Origin: Fidelibacterota bacterium
GTDB lineage: Bacteria; Fidelibacterota; UBA8477
Assembly: GCA_021734045.1 (NCBI GenBank)
Contig: JAIPJR010000051.1
Coordinates: forward strand, 1 to 21,498
Direction of reading: 5' to 3'
DNA: 21,498 nt
The translations under genes were made by a program, and so were the position numbers. The notes under the pieces were generated by a model. It was not told the DNA's origin. It made no database searches and was given only the letters and a program-made list of their open reading frames with translations. This document shows positions 9,052 through 17,958 of this stretch, piece by piece (the first letter of the stretch is position 1; each line of letters starts with the position of its first letter).

Positions 9052-9090
9052 CGCCTCGATTTGATGAAAAATCGGGGCGTGTGTTTTTTT
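9052..9090 (+). terminator. Rho-independent terminator of ppdK
   Basis: An 11-bp stem (CGCCTCGATTT at 9052-9062 pairing with AAATCGGGGCG at 9069-9079, one G-T wobble) with a 6-nt loop and a following TGTG + T7 tract. It lies 53 nt after the ppdK stop codon. Confidence 0.9.
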
Positions 9091-9830
9091 GCCACAGATA
9101 AACGCAGACAATCACAGATGAAGAAATTTTGGCCGCGGATGGCGCAGATTGGGCGGATTACGAAACCACCGTGAACCTGGAGCAAGGACCGAGGCCACAG
9201 CGTGAAAGACCTAAATTGATGTAAAGACTGGATTTCTATTTTTAGAATAAAGATTTAGCGAGTTGGGATTTGTTTGTGTTTTGATGCTTGTGATTTGGGA
9301 ATTCTCTCACTTTTGCCACAGATAAACGCAGACAAACACAGATGAAGAATTTTAGCCGCGGATGACGCGGATTGGGCGGATTACGAAACCACCGTGAACC
9401 TGGAGCAAGGACCGAGGCCACAGCGTGAAAGACCTAAATTGATGTAAAGACTGGATTTCTGTTTTGTAGGAATTGAGATTTACGATTTGGGATTTGTTTG
9501 ATATTTGGTGCTTGTGATTTGGGAATTCTCTCACTTTTGCCACAGATAAACGCAGACAATCACAGAGGAAGAATTTTTGGCCGCGGATGACGCAGATTGG
9601 GCGGATTACGAAACCACCGTGAACCTGGAGCAAGGATCGAGGGCACAGCGTGAAAGACCTAAATTGATGTAAAGACTGGATTTCCGTTTTGAAAATTGAA
9701 AATTGCGATTGGGGATTTGTTTGAGTTTTGATGCTTGTGATTTGGGAATTCTCTCACTTTTGCCACAGATAAACGCAGACAATCACAGATGAAGAATTTT
9801 TAGCCGTGGGCGACGCGGATTGAACGGATT
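9087..9830. repeat. Tandem repeat of about 224 bp, 3.3 copies
   Basis: Copies begin with TTTTGCCACAGATAAACGCAG; the GCCACAG landmark falls at 9091, 9315, 9539 and 9762, giving periods of 224, 224 and 223. The fourth copy stops after about 70 bp. Each unit has a GCCACAGATAAACGCAGACA start, a GCCGCGGATG-CGCAGATTGGGCGG block, a roughly 100-bp core (from CCACCGTGAACCTGGAG to AAAGACTGGATTTC) that is almost unchanged between copies, and an AT-rich stretch (GATTTGGGATTTG) that has diverged. The opening blocks resemble intergenic repeats seen in several other phyla. It directly follows the ppdK terminator. No protein-like frame is believable here. Confidence 0.92.
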
Positions 9831-10521: not shown

Positions 10522-10570
10522 CAATTCGCAATTCGCAATTCGCAATTCGCAATTCGCAATTCGCAATTCG
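10522..10570. repeat. Perfect 7-bp microsatellite, 7 copies (CAATTCG)n
   Basis: Seven uninterrupted copies of CAATTCG, 49 bp. It ends 67 bp before the ATG of the DUF72 gene. A frame on the opposite strand translates it as repeated NCELRIA, a well-known spurious peptide, so it is a DNA repeat and not coding. Confidence 0.97.
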
Positions 10571-11519: not shown

Positions 11520-12268
11520 TGTGTGTTCAGCTCGCCATATTGGGCTGTTTTAATCGCCATCTCAATGGCATTCCGCCGACTCGGATCCAGTGCATAGACT
11601 GTTACCTCATAACGATTGTGTCCCGAATCCTCCACTGCACCCAGCCAGGTCACTGCCGGTGACCGGTTTACCGCTGACCAGATATGATTAGCAGCTGTGA
11701 GTCGAATCCACCGGGCTGCCTCATCCGGGGAAATATTGACCGGTAATTCTATCTGAAATGTGTGTGTCCAGACTGATTCGTCCACATCCGCCTTGATAAC
11801 CTGACTACGGGCCAGTTTTGCATAGGGCATTTTGACGCGCTGTCCCTCCGGGGTCTCAATTTCCAACGACCGGTAACCGATTTTAAGAATTTTCCCGGAG
11901 GTGCCATCCACTGAGAGCGAATCCCCCACCATGTAGGTGTCTTCCCATTTCAGGATGAGTCCGCTGACAAAATCCTGGATCGCGAACCAAAAACTCCAAA
12001 TCACCATGAGCATCAGCGCGCTGAATAAAATCATGAGATAAGTGGGTTGGTCTTTGAAAATGGCATGTATGGCAGCCATGAGGAATAACAATCCTACCAG
12101 CGCTTCAATTAGCGGCAATGCGCGATTGAGCCGATCACGATTGACCGGTCGAAGCCGGGTCAGTCCAAGTCCCTTGCGCAATGCAGCCAGGATGACAATC
12201 AACACCAGCCCCAGTAGGACATATTTCACGATCAGCAATTCGGAAATATCAAATGTCAGGATATCCAT
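11516..12268 (-). CDS. MscS-family mechanosensitive channel-like protein
   Basis: A 250-residue small-conductance mechanosensitive channel homologue in the inner membrane, expected to open under membrane tension and release ions or solutes after osmotic downshift. Three membrane helices (about 12-30, 52-70 and 76-107) end in the pore-lining IWSFWFAIQDFVSGLIL, which lies where MscS has its TM3. The Sm-like beta domain (about 110-160) reads YMVGDSLSVDGTSGKILKIGYRSLEIETPEGQRVKMPYAKL, matching the 'R.GD.V...G..G.V..I....T.irt.dG..v.iPN' pattern, although the usual PN is PY. The C-terminal alpha/beta domain runs to the end. Pore packing glycines are less obvious than in E. coli MscS. Its ATG overlaps the stop of the upstream transporter-NTPase as TAATG, so the two are translated together. 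Confidence 0.85.
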   Translation of the reverse strand: MDILTFDISELLIVKYVLLGLVLIVILAALRKGLGLTRLRPVNRDRLNRALPLIEALVGLLFLMAAIHAIFKDQPTYLMILFSALMLMVIWSFWFAIQDFVSGLILKWEDTYMVGDSLSVDGTSGKILKIGYRSLEIETPEGQRVKMPYAKLARSQVIKADVDESVWTHTFQIELPVNISPDEAARWIRLTAANHIWSAVNRSPAVTWLGAVEDSGHNRYEVTVYALDPSRRNAIEMAIKTAQYGELNTH

Positions 12269-15200
12269 TACAGGTACCCCCGTGATTTTAAATGCCGGAT
12301 GATGAATGACTCCAGGTAGGGATTAATGACCCAGATGCCCTGTCCCTGTTTTTGGATTACGCCTGAATTTTCCAGAAATTGGACCTGACTCCGGATATCT
12401 TCCTCCTGCCAGCGGGTGATGCGACCCATCTTCTCCCGCGTGAGTCGTTTATGCAGGACAAATTGAAGCAGTAACGCGATGGTTTCCACATCCAATCCCT
12501 GCAATGCTGTTAAATCCGGTTCGGAAGGCAATTCGACGATTATCCGCCCCTTTTCGTGCTTTTGTATCGCCGCTATCCAGGCCCGCAACGCCGCGCCTAC
12601 ATTGCCGTGGGAATAATCAAACAGGCCAGTGAATAACTTGGCCATTTTCCATTCCGACAATTCCGCTTCGGGTGTCCCTTCCCATTCGAATTGCAGACCA
12701 GTAGAGCGATGGCGCAATAAAATAATATTCTTCAAATCCTCTGCGTCATACGGCTGACATTCAATCATGCTCAATGCCAACTCCTGCAAATCATACAACG
12801 GAGCCAGCGTATTGTAGGCGTAGCGATTCAGATTCAGGATAATAAACATCTGCCGCCCGAAGCGTCGAATCAAATCCAACAGCATGTTCAAAACCGCCTG
12901 TCCCTCAGGGCTACGCTCCCACCATAGTTCCACATCATTAAATATCAACGCATGCGCTGGCGTCAACCGGCTCATCAAATGATCCGGATCTCCTGTAGCG
13001 CGTGTGGCGGCCTGCAAATGGCGGGTGAATTCCTCCACCGAAATACTGCCGCTTTCGGGTGGGGCCACGGTAAAAATATGGTCTTTATCAAAATGCTGAC
13101 GGGCGGCAAATTGTGCTAGTGCTGATTTGCCCATGTGCTCCTCGCCCACGATGAACAACGCACCACCAAACCCCCGGTTAAAGCGTTCCACCGCCCGGGC
13201 AGCCATCTCTAATTCCGTCTCCCGACCAATCCAGAAATCGTTGGTAATACTTGGTTTACCAAGGAATAACTGTTTGTAGTAAAATGGCAGGCTGTTGAGC
13301 ACTGCCGGCCTGGGTGCCACCTGCTCCAACATGTTTAGTAGTTTGTCTGAAATGGTTGGCTCTATGCGTGTTCCGGTCTGCAGACGCCGAGCGAATAGCA
13401 CCCCTTCACTCCGACGGTACAACAACTGAACGAGTCGTTTGCTGGTAAAACGCTCCACCTGTTGTTTCACCCGCTGAAAACGGCTTACCACACCGCGGGT
13501 ACGCCGGTCCCTGATGTACTGCTGATAGTCTTGCGCCGAATGGACAATGTTATAGGGATTCAGTTGCTCACGGGTCTTTTTGAATTGGCGCTGGATAAAT
13601 TCCACCAGTTTGTTCTGTAGCTGCGTGATACGCTCAATTTCTGTTTCCAGACGCTGAACGCCGTTGTTAAGAATATTCTCCTTCGTTTCCAACTCATCCG
13701 ATTGGGATAATGCCTCATCACCCTCGGCTTCGGTGAGGTCAAAAGCCGCCAGTCGCAGGACATCCTGTGCCACCGTTTGCGCACTCTGAAATCCCTGCGG
13801 CAAATGGTTCATCTCCTCCTGCAATGGTCCGAGAAATTCCGATTCTACAATGAATTCGGCCAACCGCCGCAGCGCGACCGTGAGCATCTCCTGGTCATCA
13901 AACTGATTGCTCTCCAGTTCATTCAGCGCCGCTTCGCTGATAACCGCCACACTCTCCGGCAGATCATTGGTGGCCAGGCGAATTTCAGATAACAATTCGC
14001 CCATGACAGCAACCGGATCAATGGGATCGGACGCGTCGTAGTTGAGCTGAATCTTGTCATTTTCCCCCGCTACCGGATCCGGTTTTAACAGGGCGTTTAA
14101 TCCGTCCCGCAAGGTGATAAGTTCATCCAGAACCGTATTCTGAATACTTAGCATCACCTCATCCTGCATACGCTCCACAATGGTGCCCAGCCGGTTTTGG
14201 AGGGAAAGCAACTGAATATCCAGAACCGCCATATCCAGAAAAATAGCCTGGTTATGGTACCAGAATTCCGGGATATCGTTAAGTTTTTCCGAGACCTCTT
14301 GCGCGTGAGCGGTAACTTTGAACTCCTTGCGCAGCCGATGATTGGCATCCACGCGGTTCACTACCTGACTCAACCCTACCAAAATCTCTCGCGTCCCTTT
14401 CAATAACAAATGGCGGATTTGATTCTGGTGATTTTCCAGCAAATCGGTCAGTGACGTGCTCTCACTACTTGCCACTTCGCCCTGCTCTGCCAGCATTTTC
14501 TCCGGGAAACCTTCACCAGCGAGAATGCGGTTTTCCAATTTGCCAAATCCTTCCCGAATATGATCGACACAAGCCTGCATATCGGAGATAGTCTGATAGC
14601 TGTAAACACCGAACCGCTCCAGCACACCCAACAAGACCGGATCGTATTGATTGGTTAGATGCCCCTTCACCAGTGCCCGGAATTTCATCCGGTAGGAAAC
14701 CGGTTTGCGGGTCACCATTGCACCGAGCCGCTTCAGGAACTTGTATTGCCGGTTCCAAATACTGTCGGATTTGACAGCTCTAAATTCATCGGGTGGGTAT
14801 TCCAGCACGATGTGTTCAGGCTGCGAAAGAATCAACTCGAATAATTCGTGGCGATGGTGCTCCAGTCCGTCGGCAAGCGCGGCCTTCTGAAGCTCCAAAT
14901 CAGTCTGACGGAAATTAGCCAGCAATCGTTGAGACTGGAAGAGGAAGTCACTCTGCACTCGCAGCATGGCACGGCGATTTTTTAACCGGGCTTCTTTACG
15001 AAAATTCCGCTCCAGCGTTTCAAAGCTGCGTTCCACCAATTCCTGGAATTGTTCAACCAGCGCTTGTTGGTGATTCATTACCTTTTTTAACTGTTGGTCA
15101 GTGAAGCGGATATTCAATTCATCCAGCGTCGCTACCAGCCGCTCCATGGAACCAGCCGTGACCTCCGCTTCCGGCAGGATCACGCTGGGCAGTGTTGGCG

Positions 15201-17436
15201 TCTCACCGGCTAAAACCTGTACCTCATCCGGCGCTGCCGGCCCCTTCATTTCGATACCCACATACAAATCCTGAAAAAACCCGGAGGCGTGGATAAGCAG
15301 TACCGCACCCAGATCATCCGCCATTTGATTCACAAAAGCCACATATTCAAGGGGATCACGTGTATTCAGCGGCGGAATTCCGGTGATGGTGAGATCCGCA
15401 TGCACCGATTCTACCCGCACGATTTCAAGAAAATCTTTTTTCTCAATGGCATTATTAATGACCTTCACCTCTGCATCAATCCGGTAATCCTCCAGAATAT
15501 TGTGAGCATGCTTCAGAATGGTCTCGCGCATGGCGCTTTCATCTTCATTCACAATCAACAACCGGATTTTCGCCTCACGCCATTCATCCGTAACCGCCAT
15601 AAAACGAATCAGTGCCAGGGCTAAACTGATGTTATTGCCGCCACCACGCCACCAGATATCAACACGCTCCCGGGAGCCAAAACCGGTCTCCTCATCATGA
15701 TCCAGCAGAAGTATGTTATAATCCATTTCCTGCAAGGTCTTCAGTACACCGATGAATTTTCCCGGCTCGCGGCTATTCCGTGCCCATCCCAGCAGAACGG
15801 AATTGGGATCTACGCTTGCGAACCCGTAAAACTTGACCACGTCCTCCATGCAGGCATAAACATCATTGGTTTCCACCTGGCGGATAAAGCGACCAGTGAA
15901 ATTTTCCCCACCATACACCGCCGTCTCCGGTTTCACCTTACGAACGGAATTACGAATCACCATTCTGGAGACTTTTGGATTTTCAATCAGTTCAAAATCA
16001 GAGAGAATGCCCCGCCGATTCACCAACCAGCGTCCCAATTCCACCAGGTGGGGCCGTGCCTCCCGGCCGCCGCTAAAGAGAATGATATTGGGTCGCCAAT
16101 TTCGCTGATGGACCTGACCGTGGCTCAGACGATGTAGGGCTGAGCGCAATAAGGAGGACCAAACACCCTCCCACGTATCGCCCGACTCCAGCGTCAATTC
16201 TTTGCGTTTCAGGTAAAAAAACAGGGTACCCAATATGAGCGTCGCCCCGATCATGGCCACAAAGTCAATCTGAATCATGACCAGAAAAGCTGCAAGAGCC
16301 CCGATGATGCTAACGGTTTTAGGGATTTTAAAATCAGGGCGAAAATCAGGACTGGCCCAACTCTCGATGGCGCAGCTGGTGTTAAGGAAACCGTATGTGA
16401 CAATGAAAAACATGGTCACTACCCGGGCAATGACATCCAATTCACCCATAAGGACGCCGGTTTCAGCGATAATGAATGTAAGTAAAAGGGCATTGCGAGG
16501 CTCATTCTCTTTACCCTTCCCTTTGGCAAAAACCCGTGGTGTAATTTTATCGCCAGAAATGGCCTGGAGAATCCGCGGGGCTCCCAGGATACTGCCAAAT
16601 GACGAAGAAATGGTAGCACCCCAGATGCCCGCCAACACCAGCGGAGGGAAAAAGGAAATTTCCAGCAGAATATTGGGGTTGTTCACCAGTTCATAGGGAT
16701 CCACGCGATAGGCGAAAAACGCCGCCATGAAGATATATACCACCAATCCCACCACGATAGCAGAGACGGTTCCTACGGGAATGGAGCGCTTGGGATCTTT
16801 CAAATCCCCGGACATTGAAACACCCGCTTCAAAACCGGTCACGGCCGGGAAGTAAATGGCAAATAACACCACCAAAGGCACGGTTGATTCCGGTAAAGAT
16901 ACATGGGGCATGCTCTCTGTGCCGTGGGAGCCCATGAAAATGCTCACCAGCGATAAAGCGATGGCAGCCATGATAAAATACTGGGTCTTAATGGCTAATG
17001 CCGTGCTGATGAAGGTGACGGTAGTGACGGCCATCAGGACGACCGATCCTACCAGGCGAATGGTATTCTTATTAGCCTCCCAACCCCAGAAATTGATAAA
17101 ACTTTCAGAAAAACCGATGACATACAAACTCACACTGAAGGAGAGCCCCGCGAAGAGTGCTAAGCCCAGCGTCCCCCCAATGGGTAGTCCCAGACTGCGG
17201 GAAATCATGTAATAGGTGCCCCCGGCCCGAACCTTTTTGTCCGTGGCGATGGACGAGACACTGAGTCCGGTAGTGATGGAGATAATATGTGCCACCAGGA
17301 TAATGCCAATTGTGGCTAATAAACCGGCCTGTCCCACGATCTGGGGCAGACGCATGTACATTATCACACCCAAAATTGTCAGGATGGCCGGTGTGAAAAC
17401 GCCCCCAAATGTGCCGAACTTTTTCGCGAGTGCCAT
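12268..17436 (-). CDS. SLC12-type cation-chloride cotransporter fused to a helical region and an AAA+/Orc-like NTPase
   Basis: A single 1722-residue frame. Residues 1-410 form a 12-helix APC-superfamily transporter closest to SLC12 cation-chloride cotransporters: GVIMYMRLPQIVGQAG (23-38), YYMISRSLG (75-83), FPAVTGFEAGVSMSGDLKDP (196-215) with SIPVGT (218-223), and SSSFGSILGAPRILQAI (277-293). Residues 447-730 resemble the SLC12 cytosolic domain, starting WRPNIILFSGG..RPHLVELGRWL. Residues about 760-1385 are mainly helical and charged, with no family I recognise. Residues 1400-1620 are an AAA_16/Orc-like NTPase: GRETELE (1404-1410), Walker A GEEHMGKS (1431-1438), Walker B LIFNDVE (1497-1503), sensor-1-like ILNLNR (1533-1538) and GNVGAALRAW (1611-1620). 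Residues 1640-1722 look like a winged helix. Eukaryotic and bacterial SLC12 proteins end after the cytosolic domain. The start ATG has a modest AAGG upstream. The stop overlaps the MscS-like start. Confidence 0.9.
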   Translation of the reverse strand: MALAKKFGTFGGVFTPAILTILGVIMYMRLPQIVGQAGLLATIGIILVAHIISITTGLSVSSIATDKKVRAGGTYYMISRSLGLPIGGTLGLALFAGLSFSVSLYVIGFSESFINFWGWEANKNTIRLVGSVVLMAVTTVTFISTALAIKTQYFIMAAIALSLVSIFMGSHGTESMPHVSLPESTVPLVVLFAIYFPAVTGFEAGVSMSGDLKDPKRSIPVGTVSAIVVGLVVYIFMAAFFAYRVDPYELVNNPNILLEISFFPPLVLAGIWGATISSSFGSILGAPRILQAISGDKITPRVFAKGKGKENEPRNALLLTFIIAETGVLMGELDVIARVVTMFFIVTYGFLNTSCAIESWASPDFRPDFKIPKTVSIIGALAAFLVMIQIDFVAMIGATLILGTLFFYLKRKELTLESGDTWEGVWSSLLRSALHRLSHGQVHQRNWRPNIILFSGGREARPHLVELGRWLVNRRGILSDFELIENPKVSRMVIRNSVRKVKPETAVYGGENFTGRFIRQVETNDVYACMEDVVKFYGFASVDPNSVLLGWARNSREPGKFIGVLKTLQEMDYNILLLDHDEETGFGSRERVDIWWRGGGNNISLALALIRFMAVTDEWREAKIRLLIVNEDESAMRETILKHAHNILEDYRIDAEVKVINNAIEKKDFLEIVRVESVHADLTITGIPPLNTRDPLEYVAFVNQMADDLGAVLLIHASGFFQDLYVGIEMKGPAAPDEVQVLAGETPTLPSVILPEAEVTAGSMERLVATLDELNIRFTDQQLKKVMNHQQALVEQFQELVERSFETLERNFRKEARLKNRRAMLRVQSDFLFQSQRLLANFRQTDLELQKAALADGLEHHRHELFELILSQPEHIVLEYPPDEFRAVKSDSIWNRQYKFLKRLGAMVTRKPVSYRMKFRALVKGHLTNQYDPVLLGVLERFGVYSYQTISDMQACVDHIREGFGKLENRILAGEGFPEKMLAEQGEVASSESTSLTDLLENHQNQIRHLLLKGTREILVGLSQVVNRVDANHRLRKEFKVTAHAQEVSEKLNDIPEFWYHNQAIFLDMAVLDIQLLSLQNRLGTIVERMQDEVMLSIQNTVLDELITLRDGLNALLKPDPVAGENDKIQLNYDASDPIDPVAVMGELLSEIRLATNDLPESVAVISEAALNELESNQFDDQEMLTVALRRLAEFIVESEFLGPLQEEMNHLPQGFQSAQTVAQDVLRLAAFDLTEAEGDEALSQSDELETKENILNNGVQRLETEIERITQLQNKLVEFIQRQFKKTREQLNPYNIVHSAQDYQQYIRDRRTRGVVSRFQRVKQQVERFTSKRLVQLLYRRSEGVLFARRLQTGTRIEPTISDKLLNMLEQVAPRPAVLNSLPFYYKQLFLGKPSITNDFWIGRETELEMAARAVERFNRGFGGALFIVGEEHMGKSALAQFAARQHFDKDHIFTVAPPESGSISVEEFTRHLQAATRATGDPDHLMSRLTPAHALIFNDVELWWERSPEGQAVLNMLLDLIRRFGRQMFIILNLNRYAYNTLAPLYDLQELALSMIECQPYDAEDLKNIILLRHRSTGLQFEWEGTPEAELSEWKMAKLFTGLFDYSHGNVGAALRAWIAAIQKHEKGRIIVELPSEPDLTALQGLDVETIALLLQFVLHKRLTREKMGRITRWQEEDIRSQVQFLENSGVIQKQGQGIWVINPYLESFIIRHLKSRGYL

Positions 17437-17553: not shown

Positions 17554-17958
17554 TTAACTGTCCAGAACAGACCGTACCTTCTCCGCAAGACCTTTCACGG
17601 TGAAGGGTTTTTGCAGGAAATGGGTCCCCGATTCCAGAATACCGTAGGGTGCGATTAAATTATCGGTGTACCCGGACATGTACAGGACCTTCAGTGTGGG
17701 ATAGGAAATGGCCATTTGACGATAGAGTTGTTTCCCGTTCATACGGGGCATTATAACATCGGTGAGGAGTAAATCGATATCACCCTCAAAATCTTCCGAC
17801 ATCTTTAACGCGGCCTCGGCGTCAGGCGCATTAAGAATGTAGTAGCCCTGTTTGGTTAGAATCTCCACCACCAGTCCTCGGGCCAATTCTTCATCTTCCA
17901 CAACCAGAATGGTTTCGGTACCCCTGGGAATCGCATTGGATTGTTCTACTGTAGCCAT
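17554..17958 (-). CDS. Single-domain response regulator receiver (CheY-like)
   Basis: A 134-residue protein with only a receiver domain: acidic pair ED (21-22), the phospho-accepting Asp67 in LLLTDVIMPRMNG, the conserved Ser95 in YMSGYTD and Lys117 in FLQKPF. The whole phosphorylation machinery is intact. There is no output domain; the ETILVVEDEE..ARGLVVEIL opening and MSGYTD are typical of receivers found on hybrid histidine kinases, so this may be a stand-alone relay partner. A ribosome site (GGGAGGGAGAG region at about 17966-17976) precedes the ATG. No kinase gene is in the window, so it is an orphan. It lies 117 nt upstream of, and in the same direction as, the transporter-NTPase gene, and may or may not share its transcript. 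Confidence 0.93.
   Translation of the reverse strand: MATVEQSNAIPRGTETILVVEDEELARGLVVEILTKQGYYILNAPDAEAALKMSEDFEGDIDLLLTDVIMPRMNGKQLYRQMAISYPTLKVLYMSGYTDNLIAPYGILESGTHFLQKPFTVKGLAEKVRSVLDS

Follow-up and report, generated by a model that had tools for sequence, protein, structure and literature searches.

We examined a 21,498-nucleotide stretch of DNA (hereafter the window) from a Fidelibacterota bacterium (assembly GCA_021734045.1, contig JAIPJR010000051.1), in which one gene joins an SLC12-type transporter to a P-loop nucleoside triphosphatase (NTPase) of the Orc/STAND type. The fusion gene is a single unbroken frame of 1722 residues on the minus strand (12268-17436, with its ATG at 17436 and its stop codon at 12268-12270), while the plus-strand frame across these positions is riddled with stops. 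The original prediction, made from the sequence letters alone, had reported an uninterrupted 1722-codon frame, leaving its strand unstated, and had read it as one chain made up of an SLC12 protein, an Orc/STAND-type NTPase and a winged helix; the frame stands, and profile matches, modelling and a fold search support the composition. The chain comprises an SLC12 part (residues 1-730), a long helical region or arm (~735-1385), the NTPase (~1386-1640) and a winged helix extending to residue 1722, the last three being referred to below as the tail. A neighbour that the original prediction missed, an MscS-family gene, overlaps the fusion gene by one base: the first letter of its ATG is also the last letter of the stop codon of the fusion.

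Every domain of this system comes from a known family, and what appears to be new is the combination and the pairing of the tail with MscS. The claim that no such NTPase partner of SLC12 had been described holds for the open-access literature that we searched, which yielded neither an SLC12-NTPase fusion nor a link between STAND and MscS proteins, and the tail-MscS pairing matched no PADLOC model.

Domains of the fusion protein

The SLC12 part is recovered by NCBIfam TIGR00930 (E = 5.9e-117, yet under that model's strict curated cut-off), by Pfam AA_permease over residues 13-449 (E = 2.8e-44) and by the KCC4 structure 7d99 (E = 2e-75), and the SLC12 family match spans both the membrane and the cytosolic domains. 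Using the ion-site assignments of human NKCC1 (PMC7889885) and KCC4 (PMC7200160), we located the residues of the K+ site (Y105, P197 and T200), the Na+ site in transmembrane helix 8 (TM8; A274, S277 and S278) and the Cl- site (Y348), all of which are invariant in the eight fused homologues described below. The three Na+-site residues align with A610, S613 and S614 of NKCC1, and KCC proteins have Gly-Ala where the NKCC-type site has its two serines (PMC7889885). Hence the name attached to TIGR00930, K-Cl cotransporter, is unlikely to apply, because TM8 carries the residues typical of Na+-dependent NKCC/NCC transporters, and the N-terminal unit is a predicted NKCC-like, Na+-dependent symporter of Na+, K+ and Cl-.

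No Pfam family matched the helical arm, and the maximum hydropathy of the tail (1.38, under the threshold of 1.6 for a transmembrane segment) indicates that it does not re-enter the membrane. In two AlphaFold2 models the local confidence (pLDDT) of the NTPase and winged helix was mostly 75-90; the overall pTM was modest (0.46-0.48), so the placing of the arm relative to the NTPase is not to be trusted. The best Foldseek match of the NTPase model was Cdc6/Orc1 (2qby_A, E = 1.1e-6), with RuvB, clamp loaders, TnsC and Apaf-1 also among the matches, and the best VIA-align match was Aeropyrum pernix ORC2 (1w5t_C, Z 15.6, root-mean-square deviation 5.3 over 320 residues, corresponding to ~1382-1722 of the protein). 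Thus the C-terminus does not lack an NTPase fold when modelled, and the fold and winged helix proposed for it were both recovered.

The active-site motifs fared unevenly. Walker A (GEEHMGKS, with K1437) lies at 1431-1438 as proposed. The stretch LIFNDVE put forward as Walker B is present at 1497-1503, but it is degenerate, with N1500-D1501 rather than the canonical Asp-Glu; among the fused homologues position 1500 is N, H, D or E and position 1501 is D or E. The sensor-1 Asn exists in the sequence but is not conserved in relatives, and GNVGAALRAW (1611-1620) indeed occupies the sensor-2 position but lacks the sensor-2 Arg. The position of the STAND GxP motif reads GNVG in the window's protein and GNPG in a homologue from genome G348. 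Hydrolysis is likely to be slow or absent, and the domain would act as a switch rather than a motor. His1662 of the winged helix is invariant in the tail family. The suggestion that the winged helix binds nucleic acid gained no positive evidence, the domain being near neutral (11 K/R against 9 D/E); in STAND proteins the winged-helix domain belongs to the switch. The membrane-linked chain and the near-neutral winged helix likewise argue against a role in origin recognition of the kind played by Orc/Cdc6 proper.

Table 1. Window coordinates of the fusion protein's parts and of the MscS-family gene
Feature	Position	Strand	Basis
SLC12 (cation-chloride cotransporter) membrane domain, residues 1-415	16192..17436	-	Family and structure matches, ion sites
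SLC12-type cytosolic C-terminal domain, residues 416-730	15247..16191	-	KCC/NKCC structures align to ~661
Long helical region, residues ~735-1385, no transmembrane segment	13282..15234	-	AlphaFold2 models
Orc/STAND-type P-loop NTPase, residues ~1386-1640	12517..13281	-	AAA_16, E 1e-6; fold matches
Walker A GEEHMGKS, residues 1431-1438, K1437	13123..13146	-	Lys invariant in 8/8 fused homologues
Walker B region ALIFND, residues 1496-1501	12934..12951	-	Degenerate
GNVGAALRAW, residues 1611-1620, sensor-2 position	12577..12606	-	G-N, A and W positions conserved in family
Winged helix, residues 1641-1722	12271..12516	-	DSSP HHH-EE-H in both models; within ORC2 alignment
MscS-family protein, 250 residues	11516..12268	-	PF00924, E 1.7e-11; start codon overlaps fusion stop (TAATG)

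Upstream of the fusion gene and on the same strand lies a gene for a receiver-domain protein (17554-17958, minus; PF00072). In the same-genus genome G002 the upstream neighbour is a hybrid sensor kinase of 1433 residues, divergent from the fusion, whose receiver is 47% identical to that in the window. Elsewhere the window holds an intergenic repeat at 9087-9830 (a 223-base unit in 3.3 tandem copies with 91% matches) and, at 10522-10570, the 7-base unit CAATTCG repeated seven times without a mismatch.

Recurrence of the fusion and its MscS-family partner

A scan of the contig collection with the full protein recovered just an 86% identical relative, its patterns being too specific, and profile searches of genomes found more. 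Eight genomes from four phyla, the window's included, carry a full-length fusion (1701-1724 residues), which is the recurrence that the original prediction had named as support, and the Walker A Lys is invariant in these fusions. Two are from the same genus, both full length: G001 (86% identical; public record JAIPJQ010000065.1, Candidatus Neomarinimicrobiota) and G002 (71%). A third (G220, 1707 residues, tail identity 32%) comes from another family of the phylum, in which tails are rare: of 245 genomes, 7 carry one and 4 have it in fused form. Beyond it, fusions were found in G348 (1715 residues) and G392 (1724) of one phylum, in G322 (1705) of a second and in G399 (1701) of a third. Identity to the window's protein is 60-95% in the membrane domain, the slowest-evolving part, 40-85% in the cytosolic domain, 17-80% in the arm and 33-90% in the NTPase; across phyla the NTPase retains 33-45% and the arm 17-28%.

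In a tree that included 14 stand-alone bacterial SLC12 proteins, a long branch separated these from the eight fused SLC12 domains, which formed a single clade (100/100), and an unrooted tree of the NTPases split the fused forms from all other tails (100/100). The MscS partners of the fused loci also formed a clade of their own (100/99), although their long branches call for caution over this support value. Since the fused loci group together whether judged by the SLC12 domain, by the NTPase or by the MscS partner (support at least 100/99), the parts appear to have been joined once and inherited together. The ratio of nonsynonymous to synonymous substitution rates (dN/dS) against G001 is 0.03-0.09 in every domain, with dS near saturation in some, and the fusion is under purifying selection. 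Given these clades and the low dN/dS, the simplest account is a single, ancient joining event that selection has since preserved.

Of the 22 tail loci that we examined, 21 have an MscS-family gene next to them. It lies directly downstream of the fusion and overlaps it in G000, G001, G002, G220, G348:C144 and G399, follows after a 146-base gap with an ambiguous start codon in G322, and is upstream and divergent in G392. Downstream of the remaining tails it overlaps or starts within ~45 bases (G008, G056, G013, G348:C86, G388, G431, G399:C21, G501, G523, G424, G425, G428 and G455). As the genomes hold just 1-8 MscS genes (two in the window's genome and, in G056, one, which is the partner itself), the odds of so many adjoining a tail by chance are negligible, even when the relatedness of the genomes is taken into account. 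The partners in fused loci keep the beta-domain (PF00924) and have lost the Gly/Ala-rich TM3 along with the four residues after it, as seen on aligning the window's partner, ILFSALMLMVIWSFWFAIQDFVS----GLIL, with the canonical VALTASAGIAVGFASQDILKNIFGGIMIL. The partner in G431 (L079:3134-3667) is an MscS-like protein of 177 residues, which is probably not a channel by itself because it has about one membrane segment ahead of the beta-domain.

The tail on other membrane units

Tails without SLC12 had also escaped the original prediction. Those that stand alone are proteins of ~800-1080 residues that adjoin MscS genes, canonical in most cases. In G424, G425, G428 and G455 the tail is placed after a voltage-sensor-like S1-S4 unit and is followed by the MscS gene; these proteins have 819-876 residues (L080:2676-5246 in G424, L081:2316-4775 in G455, and those of L082 and L083). 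The S1-S4 unit matches PF00520 (E = 3e-6), covering positions 3-112 of 241 of the profile in G424, with the pore part absent, and more weakly in G455. A further form, encoded at G348:C169 (L058:8729-13363), is a 1544-residue protein in which a membrane domain of ~440 residues precedes the same tail. As its N-terminus gave no informative Pfam, NCBIfam or PDB match and resembled a CPA2-type protein only weakly (E = 0.011), we call it antiporter-like and no more.

The arm of the fused form is homologous to the arm of the tails that stand alone or follow the antiporter-like domain (494 columns aligned by hhalign, probability 98.5, E = 2.9e-15), which makes this one tail family rather than a set of coiled coils alike by chance. 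Given that the tail occurs with MscS in the absence of SLC12, its older partner was probably MscS, the union with SLC12 being later or a side branch; the tree is unrooted and leaves the order of the two associations unproven. We tentatively propose, at somewhat less than even odds, that the tail represents an undescribed family of Orc/STAND-type ion-flux switches, found nearly always with MscS and plugged into an SLC12, voltage-sensor-like or antiporter-like unit.

Certain neighbours of these loci deserve mention. A trio of genes that we read from sequence as retropepsin-like, ATP-grasp (RimK-like) and AstE-like occurs close to the tail-MscS pair in two phyla (L022:802-3678 in G008, L080:259-2622 in G424, also L082 and L083); in G424, G425 and G428 the trio immediately precedes the pair. 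Beyond the S1-S4 tail protein and its MscS gene, G424 also encodes a CASTOR/POLLUX-type channel and two further MscS proteins.

Proposed function and comparison with known systems

The architecture, recurrence and age of the fusion, the purifying selection upon it, the intact ion sites and Walker A, the partnership with MscS and the modular tail are all observed. From them we infer a nucleotide-state switch that sets the SLC12 transporter and the MscS-family protein together for the control of ions or volume, to which we assign a probability of about 0.5. The fusion gene would be the first of a two-gene ion-homeostasis module, with the cytosolic domain of the transporter extended by the long arm that ends in the Orc/STAND-type switch and its winged helix. 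Empty, ADP-bound and ATP-bound states of the switch would differ in the arrangement of arm and winged helix, and the arm would relay the nucleotide state to the SLC12 cytosolic domain, altering the activity or assembly of the symporter; nucleotide binding, this putative gating and its direction are predictions from sequence. Through physical contact, the switch might also alter the state of the co-encoded MscS-family protein, and the coupling of the two would bring salt uptake and release under one signal, which could be energy charge, ionic strength, crowding or turgor. Since human SLC12 proteins bind ATP and ADP within their own cytosolic domain (PMC8280820), nucleotide control of such a transporter is not strange in principle.

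Several features weigh against this proposal. The canonical Asp-Glu of Walker B is absent, and in the stand-alone forms of G008, G056 and G501 an Arg replaces the Walker A Lys, so that in some members nucleotide dependence might be weak or have disappeared. In the fused loci the MscS partner, which no longer has the canonical TM3 motif, may be non-conducting, and the locus of the antiporter-like protein, the sole exception among the 22, has no MscS neighbour.

Part of this evidence bears on other explanations. The tail could be mainly a regulator of MscS, with SLC12 serving chiefly as an anchor or as an ion sensor (transceptor) that reports the Na+/K+/Cl- load to the MscS-family protein. The many genomes carrying the tail with MscS and without SLC12, and the use elsewhere of an S1-S4 unit devoid of the pore part of its profile as the anchor, are consistent with this, but we regard it as rather unlikely, for every SLC12 ion site is conserved and no part of the protein evolves more slowly than the membrane domain, as in a working transporter. 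It is more doubtful that the tail works as a scaffold or as an assembly factor, whose arm and winged helix would oligomerise to cluster the transporter and MscS around a nucleotide of structural significance, with no switching cycle. Such a role would suit the long helical arm, the degenerate Walker B and the Lys to Arg changes; however, the Walker A Lys is invariant in all fused homologues, and across phyla it is the NTPase rather than the arm that is better conserved. STAND/Orc-like NTPases are common in defence and ion-leak effectors are plausible there, which would allow a defence protein whose tail senses invasion and opens ion leaks via SLC12 and MscS, but this is very improbable: the tail, two stand-alone tails and the MscS partner had no PADLOC match, there was no plasmid match, purifying selection is strong, and tail-MscS pairs lie among genes that, as far as sequence reading goes, seem to be housekeeping (aminoacyl-tRNA synthetase, outer-membrane assembly and lipoprotein-type). 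Finally, an assembly or annotation artefact joining two genes can be dismissed, for although other genomes do carry the tail as a separate gene, homologues are not always split, and eight independent assemblies from four phyla show the same arrangement, monophyletic and free of internal stops.

In animals, SLC12 transporters set cell volume and chloride through kinases. Bacteria appear to handle the same task with an NLR/Orc-class nucleotide switch built covalently into the transporter chain and, in the operon, a relative of mechanosensitive channels, and the presence of this arrangement in at least four bacterial phyla points to an undescribed control of cell salt content. If the tail does represent a family of ion-flux switches, it would tie the state of ion transport to mechanosensitive release through a nucleotide switch and constitute a bacterial counterpart of the control of SLC12 by WNK. 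The system is compact, consisting of two genes, and the link between uptake, release and nucleotide is addressable by single residues (K1437, S277/S278). The tail family, with an arm that has no Pfam model, also marks unstudied ion-control operons in several phyla.

With SLC12 proteins such as NKCC1, KCC4 and the archaeal MaCCC, the fusion shares the membrane domain, the residues of the K+, Na+ and Cl- sites and the cytosolic C-terminal domain, and it differs from them in ~990 additional C-terminal residues with the NTPase and winged helix; the known proteins are kinase-regulated, bind ATP or ADP by the cytosolic domain itself and are described with no added P-loop domain (PMC8280820). Like the Orc/Cdc6 and STAND NTPases (A. 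pernix ORC2, Cdc6 and Apaf-1), the tail has a P-loop NTPase followed by a C-terminal winged helix, but it is joined to a membrane transporter via a long helical arm, its Walker B is degenerate and it bears no sign of origin binding. The beta-domain of the window's partner is common to MscS-family channels, and the partners of most stand-alone tails look canonical, whereas those of the fused loci have a TM3 four residues shorter and devoid of the Gly/Ala pattern. A functional parallel is offered by the Trk and Kef systems with RCK/TrkA domains, in which a secondary transporter or channel is likewise placed under a cytosolic nucleotide-binding unit; there, however, the RCK unit is a Rossmann fold that binds NAD or adenine nucleotides, whereas the tail of the fusion is a P-loop NTPase of the Orc/STAND class.

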